Origin: Pseudoflavonifractor sp. An44
GTDB lineage: Bacteria > Bacillota > Clostridia > Oscillospirales > Oscillospiraceae
Reading direction: 5' to 3'
Length of the DNA stretch: 64,000 bases
Assembly (NCBI RefSeq): GCF_002161675.1
Contig: NZ_NFIH01000003.1
Span: forward strand, 62,001-126,000
Shown: piece after piece, positions 4,652-63,261 of the stretch
Numbering within the stretch: position 1 is the stretch's first letter
Layout: each line of letters begins with the position of its first letter
Position numbers and translations under genes: made by a program
The notes under the pieces: generated by a model
Seen by the model: only the letters and a program-made list of their open reading frames with translations
Databases searched by the model: none
Told to the model about the DNA's origin: nothing

Positions 4652-6280
<1,629 letters not shown>

Positions 6281-6302
6281 GAAATAGCCCCAATAAGGTT
6301 TC

Positions 6303-6335
6303 AAAAGGCCGGTGTCTTCGGACACCGGCCTTTTT
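6303..6335 (+). terminator. Intrinsic terminator of groESL
   Basis: Arms AAAAGGCCGGTGTC and GACACCGGCC enclose a TTCG tetraloop and are followed by TTTTT. A second, longer imperfect hairpin follows at 6342-6399, pairing AAAAGCAACC with GGTTGCTTTT and holding an inner GCTGC/GCAGC stem. Confidence 0.9.
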
Positions 6336-6468
6336 GAACTTTAAAAGCAACCGTTTTTAGCTGCATTTTGGATTCGCAGCCGAAAATGGTTGCTTTTCGT
6401 TTGAAGAGGAAGGGGGAGAACTAAGACACGGGGCGGATGAAGGACTTTTGCTTCTCCGATTTCTCGTG

Positions 6469-7020
6469 TGCGGACCAGCGCCCCCGCCGGGGACGCTCCG
6501 CTGGGCCCGATTTCTCCCCGATGAGAAATCGGGGAAAGAATCGCTTAGGGCGTTCCCCCCTAAGGACCTCCCTGGGGTACGGGGCTGGGCCTGCGTCAAG
6601 TCTAGGTTCGGCCCGTCACCCTTGCTGTGGCTCCTAGTACTGCCACCACACCAGGCCACCCTGGGCGGCTGGCCCTATGGCTGGGTGGTTTCCATATCCG
6701 GGCCTACCTTGGAGAAGCGGCGTTCCCGCCGCCGGAAGCCAGGCCACCGACCGCTGGGAACAGCGGCTTACCAAGGTAAGGCCCTGGGGGTAGAAGGAAG
6801 CACAAGCAGAGGAGTAGGTGGAAACCATAGAACGGAAAGCCATCTATGTGGCATGAACTAGTCCAGGGCCGAGAAGAGAAGGGCGCACCCTCCACCCAGT
6901 ACCGCGGGATGGATTCCACAAGGCGGGGGAAGGCCCCGCCTTTGGTGGTCTTTGGTTCCTTTCTGGCAGCAGAAAGGAACCCCCAGCGGGGAGCGTCCCC
7001 ACCAGGCTGGCAAGCCTGAG
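6469..7020 (+). ncRNA. Candidate large structured RNA, family 1 copy 1
   Basis: This roughly 550-nt element contains no convincing gene. It is homologous along its whole length to 53666-54219, including an uninterrupted identical block at 6506-6574. It is full of stems: CCGATTTCTC/GAGAAATCGG (6507-6532), CTTAGGG/CCCTAAG, GCGGCG/CGCCGC (6717-6732), CCGCTG/CAGCGG, TACCTTGG/CCAAGGTA closing that pair of hairpins, AAGGCGGGG/CCCCGCCTT, and a 12-bp stem GGTTCCTTTCTG/CAGAAAGGAACC (6954-6981). The ends pair with each other: GGGGACGCTCCGCTGGG (6489-6505) with CCCAGCGGGGAGCGTCCCC (6982-7000), apart from two bulged G residues. The strand shown is that of the homology; the transcribed strand is not proven. 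No known RNA family was recognised. Confidence 0.65.
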
Positions 7021-7070
7021 ACTGTGAGGTTAGACGGTCAATCTCTCCGGCCCGGGGGCAGGGAAGAGAA

Positions 7071-7098
7071 AAAGGAGGAAGCACCTGCTTCCTCCTTT
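7071..7098. terminator. Bidirectional-looking terminator hairpin
   Basis: AAAGGAGGAAGCA pairs perfectly with TGCTTCCTCCTTT. It lies between the structured RNA element and the convergent XRE gene. On the minus strand the stem ends in TTTTTCTCTTC, so it best serves the XRE gene. Confidence 0.6.
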
Positions 7099-7118
7099 AT
7101 GCGTTCTGTGGATGAAAA

Positions 7119-7439
7119 TTAACCTCTGTCCCGCAGACCATCCATATAAGCCTCCACCCGCTCTTGTTGGCGGCTATTCAACTGGCGGTAAGCATACAGG
7201 TGTGCCAGCTCCTCCGGGGTCAAATCGCTCTGTGCCATGAGACGCTTTTGCTCAGTGAGTCCGGCCAAATAGTCCAGAGATACGCCGAAAAATTGAGCAA
7301 TCGCCACGAGGGTTTCCAAATCTGGGGTTCGATCCCCCACTTCGTAGGCGCTGACGGTAGATTGAGACAGATTGAGTTTTAGAGCCAGCCCTGCTTGGCT
7401 GAGATGACGTTCCTCACGCAGTTGTTTTAATCGTAGCAC
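7119..7439 (-). CDS. XRE-family HTH transcriptional regulator
   Basis: The protein has 106 residues. A single N-terminal Cro/C1-type helix-turn-helix (about residues 4-58; LREERHLSQAGLALKLNLSQSTVSAYEVGDRTPD) is followed by a short helical tail, probably for dimerisation. The start is a GTG at 7439. It is transcribed divergently from the HTH gene at 7575. A promoter on the minus strand (TTTACA, 17 bases, TACAAT) overlaps two direct copies of ATAACACGG, so autoregulation is a reasonable inference. The regulatory target is unknown. Confidence 0.8.
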   Translation of the reverse strand: MLRLKQLREERHLSQAGLALKLNLSQSTVSAYEVGDRTPDLETLVAIAQFFGVSLDYLAGLTEQKRLMAQSDLTPEELAHLYAYRQLNSRQQERVEAYMDGLRDRG

Positions 7440-53619: not shown

Positions 53620-53665
53620 ATTTTGCTTTCTGCTCCAAACCATGAAATAGATTCTCAATGTCTCA

Positions 53666-54219
53666 GGCGGAAACCAGCGCCCCGGCCAGGGACGCTCCGC
53701 TTATGCCCGATTTCTCCCCGATGAGAAATCGGGGAAAGAATCGCTTAGGGCGTTCCCCCCTAAGGACCTCCCTGAGGTACGAGGCTAGAACTGCGTCAAG
53801 GCTATGTTCGGCCCGTCACTCTTGCTGTGGCTCCTGTTACTGCCACCATATCAGGCTATCCTGGCAGCTGGCCCTATGGCTGGGCGGTTTCCACATCCGG
53901 GCCTACCATGGAGAAGCGGCGTCCTCGCCGCCGGGAGCCAGGCCTCCGTTAGCTGGGCACAGCGGCGCACCAGGGTAAGGCCCTGGTCATAGAAGGATAC
54001 CCACACAGAGAAGCGGGTATGTTTGGTAGAATCTCCACGCCATCCATGTGACACGAATCAGGCCAAGGGCCGAAAAGAGAAAGACGCATCCTCCACCCAG
54101 TACCGCGGGGTGGATTCCACAAGGCGGGGGAAGGCCCCGCCTTTGGCGATTCTTTGGTGACTTTCTCATCGGGGAGAAAGTCACCCTGCGGAGCAAACCC
54201 CGGCTGGCAAGCCTGAGCC
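53666..54219 (+). ncRNA. Candidate large structured RNA, family 1 copy 2
   Basis: It is homologous to 6469-7020 in the same orientation. The 69 bases at 53706-53774 are identical except for the last few; elsewhere the copies differ at many sites but keep the stems. The clearest case is GGTGACTTTCTC/GAGAAAGTCACC (54156-54185), a perfect 12-bp stem that corresponds to GGTTCCTTTCTG/CAGAAAGGAACC in copy 1, with both arms changed together. The hairpin GCGGCG/CGCCGC keeps its stem and changes its loop. The terminal helix is GCTCCGC (53694-53700) with GCGGAGC (54188-54194), and outside it CTCAGGC near 53663 can pair with GCCTGAG near 54212. Some stems, such as the one matching TACCTTGG, have a mismatch here. 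Confidence 0.65.
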
Positions 54220-54283
54220 TAGGTCATTTAGAAGAACAATCTTCCAGTCAGCCTTGCACAGGGCGGTATTGACGCAAAAAATC

Positions 54284-59187: not shown

Positions 59188-59704
59188 GGGGTCCCACTCC
59201 TCTCGAGAAAAAAGTAACCGAAATCCTTTGATACCTATCATACCACGGGGGGTTGTTGAACGCAAGGAAACTTGTTGGCATCAGGCAAATTTAGGAAAAG
59301 TTCTCCATCCGGTCCGAAACGTGAACTTTGGGCGAGACGGCCGGTCACGGCGCTTGTGGGGTTGGAGAATTTGGTCATTTCATAGTTGTACGGTATGACC
59401 ACCCAAGGTTGGGTAAGTTTGGCGGCTGCGTGGGCTCCAAGCACACCCTATGTCCGTGAGAGGGCGACAGAGCATTTGATAAAAAAGTAACAAAAAATCT
59501 TGTTTTATGGGATAGTGCCGGGGTTTGTCCGGTGCAAGGTATCTGATTTGAAACGGAAGGGGAGAGGGCGGATGGTGTGTGAGAATTTACAAGAAAAAAT
59601 GGAATTATTCATTGAATTTATAGGAGAAATGTGGTAGACTGAGGTGTATTCGGAATTTGGATGTCTCAGCGCTCTTTGCTGAGAAGCAAAAGGAGGAAAC
59701 GAAA
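59188..59704 (+). promoter_or_regulatory. Long nifJ upstream region with promoter
   Basis: About 500 bases without a gene that I can support. The promoter is TTGAAT (59612-59617), 17 bases, TAGACT (59635-59640). Between 59280 and 59600 I see AT-rich and GC-rich patches and a weak GATA-TGCCGG/CCGGTGC-TATC fold near 59513-59545, but no known riboswitch motif. The length and the divergent layout leave room for regulation of this highly expressed gene. Confidence 0.55.
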
Positions 59705-62700
59705 ATGGCACGTAAGTTCAAAACTATGGACGGCAACACCGCTGCCGCTCACGTGTCCTACGCATTCACAGAGGTTGCGGGTATTTACCCCATCACTCCG
59801 TCCAGCCCCATGGCTGACAATGTGGATCAGTGGGCCGCTGCTGGCCGGAAGAATATCTTCGGCCAGACCGTGAAGGTTGTGGAGATGCAGTCCGAGGCCG
59901 GCGCTGCCGGTACCGTCCACGGCTCTCTGGCCGCTGGCGCCCTGACCACCACCTACACCGCGTCTCAGGGTCTGCTGCTGATGATCCCCAACATGTACAA
60001 GATTGCCGGTGAGCTGCTGCCCACCGTGTTCCATGTCTCCGCCCGTACTGTGGCCAGCCATGCTCTGAACATCTTTGGTGATCACTCCGACGTTATGGCC
60101 TGCCGTCAGACCGGCTTTGCCATGCTGTGTGAGTCCAACCCCCAGGAGGTTATGGACCTGGCTGCTGTGGCTCACCTGGCCACCCTGAAGAGCCGCGTCC
60201 CCTTCATCAACTTCTTCGATGGCTTCCGTACCTCTCACGAGATCCAGAAGGTCGCCGTTTGGGACTACGAGGATCTGGCCGAGATGTGCGACATGGACGC
60301 TGTGGCCGCGTTCCGCGCCCGCGCTCTCAACCCCGATCACCCCGTGATGCGCGGTTCTCACGAGAACGGCGACATCTTCTTCCAGCACCGTGAGGCCTCC
60401 AACCCCTACTACGATGCCGTTCCCGAGATCGTGGAGGAGTACATGGGCAAGGTCAACGAGAAGCTGGGCACCAACTACCAGCTGTTCAACTACTACGGCG
60501 CTGCCGACGCTGACCGCGTCATCATCGCCATGGGCTCCATCTGCGACGTGGCCGAGGAAGTCATCGACTACCTCAACGCTCACGGCGAGAAGGTGGGTCT
60601 GGTGAAGGTCCGTCTGTATCGTCCTTTCCGTGCCGACAAGCTGCTGGCTGCCATCCCCGCCACCTGCAAGCAGATCGCTGTGCTGGACCGCACCAAGGAG
60701 CCCGGCGCTCAGGGCGAGCCTCTGTACCTGGACGTTGTCACCGCTCTGGCCAACGCTGGCCGCAACGACATCCGTGTCATCGGTGGCCGTTATGGTCTGG
60801 GCTCCAAGGACACTCCCCCCGCCAGCGTGTTCGCTGTGTATGAGGAGATGACCAAGGCTGATGCCAAGCGTCTGTTCACTCTGGGCATCAAGGACGACGT
60901 GACCCACCTGTCCCTGGAGGAGAAGCCCTCTCCCAACACTGCTGCCGAGGGCACCATCGAGTGCAAGTTCTGGGGTCTGGGCGGCGACGGTACCGTGGGC
61001 GCCAACAAGAACTCCATCAAGATCATCGGCGACCACACCGACAAGAACGTGCAGGCTTACTTCCAGTACGACTCCAAGAAGACTGGCGGCGTGACCATTT
61101 CCCACCTGCGCTTCGGCGACAAGGCCATCCGCAGCCCCTACTACATCAACAAGGCTGACTTCGTGGCCTGCCACGTGCCCAGCTACATCACCAAGGGCTT
61201 CCCCATCGTCCGTGACGTGAAGCCCGGCGGCGTGTTCCTGGTCAACTGCCAGTGGAACTTCGACGAGCTCAACCACCACCTGGATGCTGCTTCCAAGCGC
61301 TACATCGCTCAGAACAACATCCAGCTGTACATGATCAACGCCATCGACCTGGCCATCGAGATCGGTATGGGCAAGCGCACCAACACCATTCTCCAGTCCG
61401 CCTTCTTCGCTCTGGCCAACGTCATGCCCCAGGAGGACGGCATCCGCTACATGAAGGAAGCTGCCACCAAGTCCTACCTGAAGAAGGGCCAGGACGTGGT
61501 TGACATGAACCACAAGGCCATCGACCTGGGCGCCACCGCCTTCGTCAAGGTGGACGTGCCCGCCGACTGGGCTACCGCTGAGGATGCTCCCGCTGCCCAC
61601 AACTACGAGGGCAAGGCTGAGCTGGTGGCTCAGGTGGAGAACATCATGGAGCCCGTCAACAAGATGGACGGCGACTCCCTGCCCGTCTCCAAGTTTGTCG
61701 ACTGCGTGGACGGCACCTTCCAGCAGGGCGCTTCCGCTTACGAGAAGCGCGGCGTGGCCGTCACCGTGCCCGCCTGGAACGAGAGCACCTGTGTCCAGTG
61801 TAACCAGTGCTCCTACGTCTGCCCCCACGCCACCATCCGTCCCTTCGCTCTGACCGAGGAAGAGGCTGCTGCCGCTCCCGCCGGTTCCCAGATCGTGGAC
61901 ATCAAGGCTGGCGCTGGCAAGGGCAAGTATAAGTACTCCCTGGCCGTGTCCGCTCTGGATTGTATGGGCTGCGCCGTGTGCGTGGGCGTGTGTCCCACCA
62001 AGAGCCTGACCATGGTGCCCATGGAGCAGATGCTGTCCAAGCAGCCTGCCTTCGACTACATGGTCGCCAAGGTTGCCCCCAAGAAGGACATGGAGTCCGT
62101 GGCCAACGTCAAGGACAGCCAGTTCAAGCAGCCCCTGCTGGAGTTCTCTGGCTCCTGCGCCGGCTGTGCCGAGACCTCCTATGCCCGTCTGGTCACCCAG
62201 GTCTGCGGCGATCGTATGTATGTCTCCAACGCCACCGGTTGTTCCTCCATCTGGGGCGGCCCCGCTGCTACCTCTCCCTACTGCACCAACGCCGAGGGCA
62301 AGGGTCCCGCTTGGGCCAACTCCCTGTTCGAGGACAACGCCGAGCACGGCCTGGGTATGCTGGTTGGTGTCAAGCAGCGTCGTGAGAAGCTGGTTGAGGT
62401 CGTCACCGGTCTGACCACCGCCGACTGCGCCAGCGACGAGCTGAAGGCTGCCGCCGCTGAGTGGCTGGCCAAGCGCGACGAGGGCGAGGGTTCCAAGGAG
62501 CCTTCCGCCAAGCTGCTGGAGCTGGCTAAGACCTGCGACTGCGACGCTTGCCGTCAGGTCGTGGAGATGTCCGATCTGCTGGTGAAGAAGTCCGTGTGGA
62601 TCTTCGGCGGCGACGGCTGGGCTTACGACATCGGTTACGGCGGTCTGGACCACGTCCTGGCTTCCGGCGAGGATGTCAACGTCTTCGTCTTCGACACCGA

Positions 62701-63244
62701 GGTGTACTCCAACACCGGCGGACAGGCTTCCAAGTCCACCAACATCGGCCAGGTGGCTCAGTTCGCCGCTGCCGGTAAGACCGTGGGCAAGAAGAGCCTG
62801 TCTGAGATCGCCATGCAGTACGGCTACGTCTACGTGGCTCAGGTTGCCATGGGTGCCAACCCCAACCAGACCCTGGCTGCCATCCGTGAGGCTGAGGCCT
62901 ATCATGGTCCCTCCCTCATCATCGGCTACGCTCCCTGCGAGATGCACTCCATCAAGGGCGGCATGACCAACTGCCAGACCGAGATGAAGCGCGCTGTGGA
63001 GTGCGGCTACTGGAACCTGTTCCGCTACAATCCCACTCTGAAGGAGCAGGGCAAGAACCCCTTCACTCTGGATTCCAAGGCCCCCGCTGGCGGCTATCAG
63101 GAGTTCCTGATGAACGAGGCTCGCTACTCCTCCCTCACCCGCTCCTTCCCCGAGCGCGCCAAGGATCTGTTCGAGAAGAACGAGAAGGCCGCTATGGAGC
63201 GCTGGGAGCACCTGCAGAAGCTCATCGAGCTGTACGCTCAGTAA
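59705..63244 (+). CDS. nifJ: Pyruvate:ferredoxin (flavodoxin) oxidoreductase
   Basis: The 1179-residue protein is a single-chain, homodimeric type PFOR. It starts MDGNTAAAHVSYAFTEVAG with the first TPP-binding region (YPITPSSPM). A gamma-like domain follows, then two [4Fe-4S] motifs CVQCNQCSYVCPHA and CMGCAVCVGVCPTK (about 700 and 755), then the TPP domain with GCAETSY, GDGWAYDIGYGGLDH and YSNTGGQASKST. It turns pyruvate and CoA into acetyl-CoA, CO2 and reduced ferredoxin, the core of anaerobic energy metabolism. The ATG follows AAAAGGAGGAAAC. Codon use is the most biased in the window, indicating very high expression. Confidence 0.98.
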   Translation: MARKFKTMDGNTAAAHVSYAFTEVAGIYPITPSSPMADNVDQWAAAGRKNIFGQTVKVVEMQSEAGAAGTVHGSLAAGALTTTYTASQGLLLMIPNMYKIAGELLPTVFHVSARTVASHALNIFGDHSDVMACRQTGFAMLCESNPQEVMDLAAVAHLATLKSRVPFINFFDGFRTSHEIQKVAVWDYEDLAEMCDMDAVAAFRARALNPDHPVMRGSHENGDIFFQHREASNPYYDAVPEIVEEYMGKVNEKLGTNYQLFNYYGAADADRVIIAMGSICDVAEEVIDYLNAHGEKVGLVKVRLYRPFRADKLLAAIPATCKQIAVLDRTKEPGAQGEPLYLDVVTALANAGRNDIRVIGGRYGLGSKDTPPASVFAVYEEMTKADAKRLFTLGIKDDVTHLSLEEKPSPNTAAEGTIECKFWGLGGDGTVGANKNSIKIIGDHTDKNVQAYFQYDSKKTGGVTISHLRFGDKAIRSPYYINKADFVACHVPSYITKGFPIVRDVKPGGVFLVNCQWNFDELNHHLDAASKRYIAQNNIQLYMINAIDLAIEIGMGKRTNTILQSAFFALANVMPQEDGIRYMKEAATKSYLKKGQDVVDMNHKAIDLGATAFVKVDVPADWATAEDAPAAHNYEGKAELVAQVENIMEPVNKMDGDSLPVSKFVDCVDGTFQQGASAYEKRGVAVTVPAWNESTCVQCNQCSYVCPHATIRPFALTEEEAAAAPAGSQIVDIKAGAGKGKYKYSLAVSALDCMGCAVCVGVCPTKSLTMVPMEQMLSKQPAFDYMVAKVAPKKDMESVANVKDSQFKQPLLEFSGSCAGCAETSYARLVTQVCGDRMYVSNATGCSSIWGGPAATSPYCTNAEGKGPAWANSLFEDNAEHGLGMLVGVKQRREKLVEVVTGLTTADCASDELKAAAAEWLAKRDEGEGSKEPSAKLLELAKTCDCDACRQVVEMSDLLVKKSVWIFGGDGWAYDIGYGGLDHVLASGEDVNVFVFDTEVYSNTGGQASKSTNIGQVAQFAAAGKTVGKKSLSEIAMQYGYVYVAQVAMGANPNQTLAAIREAEAYHGPSLIIGYAPCEMHSIKGGMTNCQTEMKRAVECGYWNLFRYNPTLKEQGKNPFTLDSKAPAGGYQEFLMNEARYSSLTRSFPERAKDLFEKNEKAAMERWEHLQKLIELYAQ

Positions 63245-63261
63245 GTTTCTCCCAAGCATTC

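Follow-up and report, generated by a model that had tools for sequence, protein, structure and literature searches.

MITEs are short, non-autonomous elements with inverted-repeat ends and several interiors. Elements of the IS200/IS605 group carry hairpins at their ends, and invertons are segments that lie between short inverted repeats and are found in both orientations. The BIME, REP and REPIN sequences, together with RAYT, are presented in the abstracts of two studies as extragenic palindromic units of high copy number, mosaic, arranged in alternating orientation and in inverted pairs, and proposed to be non-autonomous mobile DNA (PMC2817692, PMC3116915). Excerpts of further papers give the length of REPs as 20–40 bp (PMC3733652), describe REPs as targets of insertion sequences (PMC1525189), describe the reading of the target by base pairing in IS608, of the IS200/IS605 group (PMC5934647), and present OLE, GOLLD and ROOL as large non-coding RNAs (PMC12286853).

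The element reported here was identified in a window of 64,000 nucleotides (the whole stretch of DNA analyzed) from Pseudoflavonifractor sp. An44, and its closest described concepts are BIME, REPIN and MITE. As in BIMEs, the element is extragenic and mosaic, with modules in alternating orientation; however, it measures 500–600 bp with a conserved core of ~ 400 nt, against the 20–40 bp given for REPs, five of its seven carrier species yielded no RAYT-type Y1 transposase, and neither loop–linker complementarity nor replacement of a core at a fixed site appears in the abstracts of the two BIME studies (PMC2817692, PMC3116915). Terminal inverted repeats, non-autonomy and several interiors are shared with MITEs, but neither a clean target-site duplication (a few sites, by eye) nor a partner transposase was found, and the core is constrained at kept sites. 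Recognition via base pairing and end hairpins recall IS200/IS605, whereas here it is the loop and the inner linker that carry the complementary bases, each end mirrors the other and, as noted, five of the seven carriers gave no Y1 match. The size scale and non-coding character are those of OLE, GOLLD and ROOL, in contrast to which there are ~ 55 dispersed copies, no Rfam match at the gathering score and long-range pairs unsupported by double changes. As in an inverton, a segment between inverted repeats occurs in both orientations, but core identity (69.6–89.1% in nine inverted pairs) indicates replacement and not simple flipping. A literature search, in which coverage of subscription journals was thin, returned no title or abstract opening describing this element, and of six taxon names sought in the RepRanger paper (PMC12306157) only 'Bacillota' occurred, once.

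Layout and distribution of the element

Copy 1 is preceded by an ORF at 4655..6280 (+), which we take to be groEL, with terminator-like inverted repeats behind it, and is followed by a minus-strand ORF (7119–7439). The element runs inverted repeat, hairpin, linker, non-coding core of ~ 400 nt, linker, hairpin, inverted repeat; in the aligned copies this resolves into an outer arm (alpha or beta), an inverted repeat of ~ 17 bp, an end hairpin with a stem of ~ 11 bp, AAAG or AAAA, a short linker, the core and then the mirror image. The core has its own hairpins at both borders and, in most copies, varies little in length. Alignment of copies and ends showed that the conserved outer arms extend past the 6469–7020 first annotated, to roughly 6450 to 7045. 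The left side of copy 1 comprises a beta-type outer arm (6450..6488, consensus CTTCTCCGATTTCTCAGGCGCAAACCAGCGCCCC; outer boundary approximate, from the element-end alignment), the left inverted repeat (6489..6505, GGGGACGCTCCGCTGGG), the left end hairpin (6506..6533), whose loop CGAT is complementary to the linker ATCG, and AAAG plus linker (6535..6543, AAAGAATCG). The core (6544..6945, + strand, type I) begins with a hairpin at 6544–6564, ends with one at 6920–6942, and contains a conserved internal hairpin, GCGGCGTTCCCGCCGC, at 6717..6732 and another at 6751..6766 with compensatory variants (columns 351/362 of alignment A1, see below: GC 50, AU 19, n = 71). The right side consists of the linker and CTTT (6946..6953), whose class is one without loop–linker pairing, the right end hairpin (6954..6981), the right inverted repeat (6982..7000) and an alpha-type outer arm (7001..7045, GGCTGGCAAGCC ... 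TTAGACGGTCAATC; outer boundary likewise approximate).

The stems are real. The 12-bp stem 6954–6965/6970–6981 reported by the first-pass annotation is perfect, as is the 11-bp hairpin 6506–6516/6523–6533. Its terminal pairing of 6489–6505 with 6982–7000 was recovered as a perfect match of 6489–6499 with 6990–7000 together with 6500–6505/6982–6987, giving a 17-bp inverted repeat broken by two bases, though not as a helix that closes the whole element. The second copy that it had placed elsewhere in the window was confirmed by blast of the window against itself (53673–54220, 83% identity); it occupies approximately 53652..54241, with its core on the + strand. Three window ORFs over copy 1 (137, 126 and 100 aa) had no Pfam match, and since copies also differ in length by single bases, protein coding by the element was rejected. 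Elsewhere in the window, two ORFs of ~ 1195 aa at 59657–63259 overlap almost completely on opposite strands; one is presumably a real gene and the other a long open frame antisense to it.

In this genome (G000; 2.75 Mb, 51 contigs) a 17-base motif at the core end had 53 exact matches, two more with a single mismatch and one with two mismatches, while the reversed-pattern control gave no match. This puts the number of core-end motif copies at about 55, a count of core ends that includes some truncated elements and misses those that have lost the left core end. The first scan of the genome yielded at least 109 matching pieces, the best 40 of 84 candidates being scored, and later scans scored the best 3 to 18 candidates per genome; with so few scored, copy counts are taken from the 17-base motif pattern and absences by blast are weak. 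Among 60 genomes including this one, nine matched at E ≤ 0.001, of which two did so only across 29–34 bases, and the remaining seven (G000, G001, G006, G010, G018, G020 and G024) represent one genus. Among the genomes searched, elements with the core-end motif were found only in these seven species. A 24-base motif located 43 stretches in named genomes, those of Pseudoflavonifractor capillosus An386a, Ca. Enterenecus avicola and uncultured Oscillospiraceae. Across 200 genomes of the family, the 17-base motif was present only in the three carriers sampled from the genus. A blast of the 512-bp element against the same 200 genomes, scoring the best three candidates in each, added ten genomes from nine other genera; these matches were short and weak (E 1.5e-7 to 6.8e-4) and lay at or beside the end modules. 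One exact 21-base motif gave no match in the viral contigs searched, and the phages and plasmids searched contained no match to the element. Elements were intergenic wherever examined. With genes called by codon score, the neighbours at 41 sites were convergent in 16 cases, tandem in 22 and divergent in three, the core of tandem sites being co-directional with the genes in nine and opposite in 13.

In copies lacking a type-I core the same ends enclose other interiors, and four kinds of core (types I to IV) were distinguished by eye. In type II the reverse complement of the 3′ half stands in place of the 5′ half; types III and IV have different interiors, and certain copies are truncated or carry extra inserted repeats (all by eye). 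In L132 and L146 the core is interrupted after hairpin GCGGCGTTCCCGCCGC by another repeat (GGGGCCGTGGCTTGCCCGGCCC...), the hairpin apparently being the insertion site, and in L053 and L056 it is likewise split after this hairpin, by ~ 155–175 bases. Several elements (L040, L038, L024 and L147) are flanked on one or both sides, by eye, by a ~ 50-nt palindromic repeat of two hairpins (GGCTCCCCTGTGTAAGGGGAGC..GGGGTTG and relatives). At the site orthologous to that of copy 1, an inverted pair of ~ 50-nt repeats was present alone in G020 (L234), the cassette being absent, and G006 had other genes. At the ortholog of the L038 site (L111, 1880–2220) a single hairpin lies between inverted repeats with no core, representing a cassette-free site. 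An exact pattern for empty palindromic sites (CGCTGGGG..CCCCAGCG) matched in eight of 42 genomes, and two sites, in G024 and G010, looked family-like by eye. No clean target-site duplication was seen by eye at a few sites, cassette-free sites included. In P. capillosus An386a, the ortholog of the L034 site (L090, ~ 6480–6900) holds a different palindromic element with a copy of a terminator-like hairpin (AAGTGCTATCCAGAGCGGATAGCACTTG) on each side, as though this hairpin had been the insertion target and had been duplicated; L150 has a similar sequence.

Hairpin loops, linkers and the global fold

On either side of the element, going from the outside inwards, there is a tendency for the loop of the end hairpin to complement the linker on its 3′ side, the loop/linker classes being AGCGGG/CCCGCT, AGTGGC/GCCACT, AGCGAT/ATCGCT, TGGG/CCCA and GGTGGG/CCCACC. 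Clear hairpins made 83 of 88 elements testable, and the mean complementary run was 4.52 at left ends (3.52 permuted) and 3.54 at right ends (2.78 permuted), with none of 300 permutations as high on either side; these counts reflect a handful of hairpin classes and not 83 independent events. Cross-side pairing and the reversed controls were null. Right ends did not pair in 20 of the 88 elements, in two classes that include copy 1 of the window, and at 15 of the 88 left ends the match was of only three bases. On structural reasoning, a 4-base spacer would be short for the loop to pair with the linker of the same molecule across an 11-bp stem, which would count against such pairing.

In other genera the same or a similar stem carries other loops, mostly with linkers that match them (AGTCAC/GTGACT, CGCA/TGCG, TCAC/GTGA, TGTG/CACA). 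For 35 loop–linker combinations, some of which are perhaps not element ends, the mean run was 3.77 against 2.31 permuted (0/1000 as high), superseding an earlier test with a narrower motif and five combinations (4.4 against 3.23, 32/1000). The same-sense control was also raised (2.74 against 2.32, 7/1000), perhaps owing to palindromic loops among the set. Among 48 loci scanned in other genera (five of them from the same genus, and several sites fetched twice), 22 had a pair of inward-facing hairpins, enclosing 310–883 nt with a longest ORF of 37–214 aa; two ORFs from within these pairs were run through Pfam in search of an autonomous element, and neither matched. In L236–L283, chiefly from G186 and G145, the rule of hairpin, AAAG and linker was observed around different non-coding interiors, and these loci are perhaps part of a wider superfamily of elements.

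The first-pass annotation had described copy 1 as folding from end to end. The folding energy of core plus hairpins lay beyond 60 dinucleotide shuffles on both strands (z −8.2 and −6.4 for copy 1, −5.2 and −6.4 for copy 2), and that of the core alone gave z of −2.4 to −3.7. A consensus fold was evaluated on alignment A1, which holds 71 of 74 distinct copies (L075:1406, L039 and L054 were omitted, the last two having a truncated or foreign end), and comprised 90 pairs. In the 48 local-hairpin pairs double-change cells numbered 307; slid controls reached 89 at most, and no shuffle out of 500 was as high. The 42 long-range pairs contained 11, against 4–19 in slid controls and a shuffled mean of 6.4 (13/500 as high). 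A long-range covariation score that also counts one-sided changes was 0.108, compared with 0.103 for shuffles (14/500) and 0.029–0.057 for slid controls, and owed most to one-sided G-U changes, such as those at columns 185/489 (GC 54, GU 15). The outer arms match perfectly over at most 11 bp in copy 1 and 7 bp in copy 2, and over 86 copies the complementarity of an element's own outer arms averaged 10.4 against 11.2 for arms of different elements. Double changes thus back the local pairs but not the long-range ones, so that the hairpins can be taken as real, while a global fold remains conjectural. The end-to-end fold as one conserved unit was not upheld, the outer arms being uncoordinated within copies and the long-range double changes falling within the range of slid controls.

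By folding energy, 61 of 84 cores were more stable in antisense, while G-U exceeded A-C (640 against 444) over 64 overlapping candidate helices in a 69-sequence alignment that excludes type-II cores, leaning weakly to sense; the two strand tests conflict and give no decision. The conserved core may be transcribed, and could be read either as RNA or in the form of folded DNA. In line with the first-pass annotation, which did not recognize the motifs of OLE, GOLLD or ROOL, none of the 4227 Rfam families, these three included, matched the window at the gathering score, and a permissive search of 6280–7118 gave 21 matches, every one below gathering.

Core replacement at orthologous sites

Comparison of flanks between species gave 24 orthologous pairs from 16 sites, overlapping in sites and species, in which both flanks matched; named loci were assigned to genomes partly by presumption, An386a being treated as G018 and CALXDO as G010. 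The core had the same orientation in 15 pairs and was inverted in nine. Core identity in the inverted pairs was 69.6–89.1%, none reaching 90%, with flanks at 85–99%, while among the same-orientation pairs five cores were 90–98% identical and ten 64–87%. With flanks kept and cores mostly diverged, sites persist but usually hold a different cassette. Simple inversion was rejected because the inverted cores are not orthologous by identity. Three inverted pairs were inspected base by base, and one of them (L045 versus G006) had a clean break at the inverted repeat, identity running to the end of GGGGACGCTCCGCTGGG and returning at its mirror copy; the other two had no clean break point. An inversion is also present in the isolate P. 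capillosus An386a (L045 versus L090). Outside the 24 pairs, the G006 ortholog of copy 2 has its core the opposite way round and interrupted by other sequence.

In 30 cores of this genome, drawn from the 69-sequence alignment, linkage fell from an r2 of 0.143 at 1–2 bp to 0.037 at 50–100 bp (permuted, 0.035), and core variants are in linkage equilibrium past ~ 50 bp. Using the same alignment, shared runs of at least 16 variable columns were found in 44 of 2346 core pairs, orthologs included, against 11.8 expected and a maximum of 17 in 20 permutations. Such runs were not more frequent within a genome (12/625 pairs) than between genomes (32/1721). In five kept type-I orthologs, changes had occurred at 72 of 573 columns that vary between paralogs and at 11 of 921 invariant ones. 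Changes thus concentrate at paralog-variable columns, which argues that kept copies are constrained or homogenized and not freely decaying.

Origin of the mosaic

Three candidate mobilizers were considered and each was missing from some carriers, in assemblies that are partly incomplete. The Y1 transposase (PF01797) gave no match in G006, G010, G018, G020 and G024, some of which are incomplete MAGs, with one match bearing an internal stop in G000 and two matches in G001. The IS110 recombinase (PF02371) of bridge-RNA elements was found in G000, G018 and G001 and was absent from G006, G024, G020 and G010, the assemblies again being partly incomplete. Reverse transcriptase was absent from G006; a reverse transcriptase within a 355-aa open frame was observed in three carrier species (G000:C34:86048-86614, G024:C144 and G020:C96).

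With ~ 55 non-coding copies that appear to swap contents and orientation, and loops that mostly complement adjacent bases, the data point to an unusual recombining DNA element and not to a single large RNA gene. It is probably a non-autonomous, palindromic, mosaic interspersed DNA element in which cassettes are replaced, either way round, via ectopic recombination or gene conversion. One way in which this could proceed is that, when the strand is single during replication or cruciform extrusion, each end would fold, and the folded single-stranded ends would be the recognized form. The loop–linker complementarity would mark the junction, and a trans-acting enzyme or host recombination would swap the segment flanked by the inverted repeats for that of a different copy. 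The mirror symmetry of the ends would let the new core enter either way round. The earlier suggestion of a mobile element that works in folded form, as DNA or RNA, was close, given the ~ 55 copies, palindromic ends and core replacement at orthologous sites; that of a large structured RNA was not established, since double changes support only the local hairpins.

It is possible, if doubtful, that the Oscillospiraceae perform a base-pair-guided recombination, in which the loops would be short guides for the complementary linker and a putative enzyme would cut there and swap non-coding cassettes, in either orientation, among dozens of palindromic sites; every class of hairpin would then have an addressable junction to itself. 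A multicopy gene for a large structured RNA, whose core would be transcribed and function as a folded RNA, and whose repeats would have arisen by rRNA-like duplication and conversion, is unlikely. Such a gene would explain the constraint at kept sites, the near-constant core length in most copies, the folding energy of core and hairpins beyond shuffles, G-U above A-C, the several long-range pairs varying by G-U and the long-range covariation score above slid controls, but long-range double changes were no higher than in slid controls, the antisense is equally or more stable, the outer arms are uncoordinated within copies, and core orientation differs relative to the neighbours and between species.

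The case for an ordinary MITE of a DDE transposase, with dead cargo, an old spread and mosaicism due to homologous recombination of decaying copies, draws on the terminal inverted repeats, intergenic position, high copy number and ends common to different interiors. We regard this origin as distinctly improbable, as decay is uneven in kept copies, invariant columns stay invariant, hairpin arms and loop–linker pairs keep their complementarity through changes, and by eye no target-site duplication was seen at a few sites. Since most relatives are metagenome assemblies (MAGs) and some copies have roughly 100 identical bases in common near the right end (by eye), some of the exchanges could be assembly errors. 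That the exchanges and inversions as a whole are chimeric joins at repeats is nevertheless highly improbable: two errors per site would be required to leave both flanks in place around a different interior, five of the 15 same-orientation orthologs are 90–98% identical, and an isolate, P. capillosus An386a, also has an inversion.

If the recombining DNA element is the correct reading, some bacterial genomes would carry a class of interspersed elements (~ 1% of this genome, estimated from 55 copies of ~ 560 bp) whose mutual recombination would be free enough to erase linkage within the core past ~ 50 bp while the non-coding core is still constrained. The loop–linker rule would then provide a simple sequence signature for locating such elements and any enzyme that reads it.
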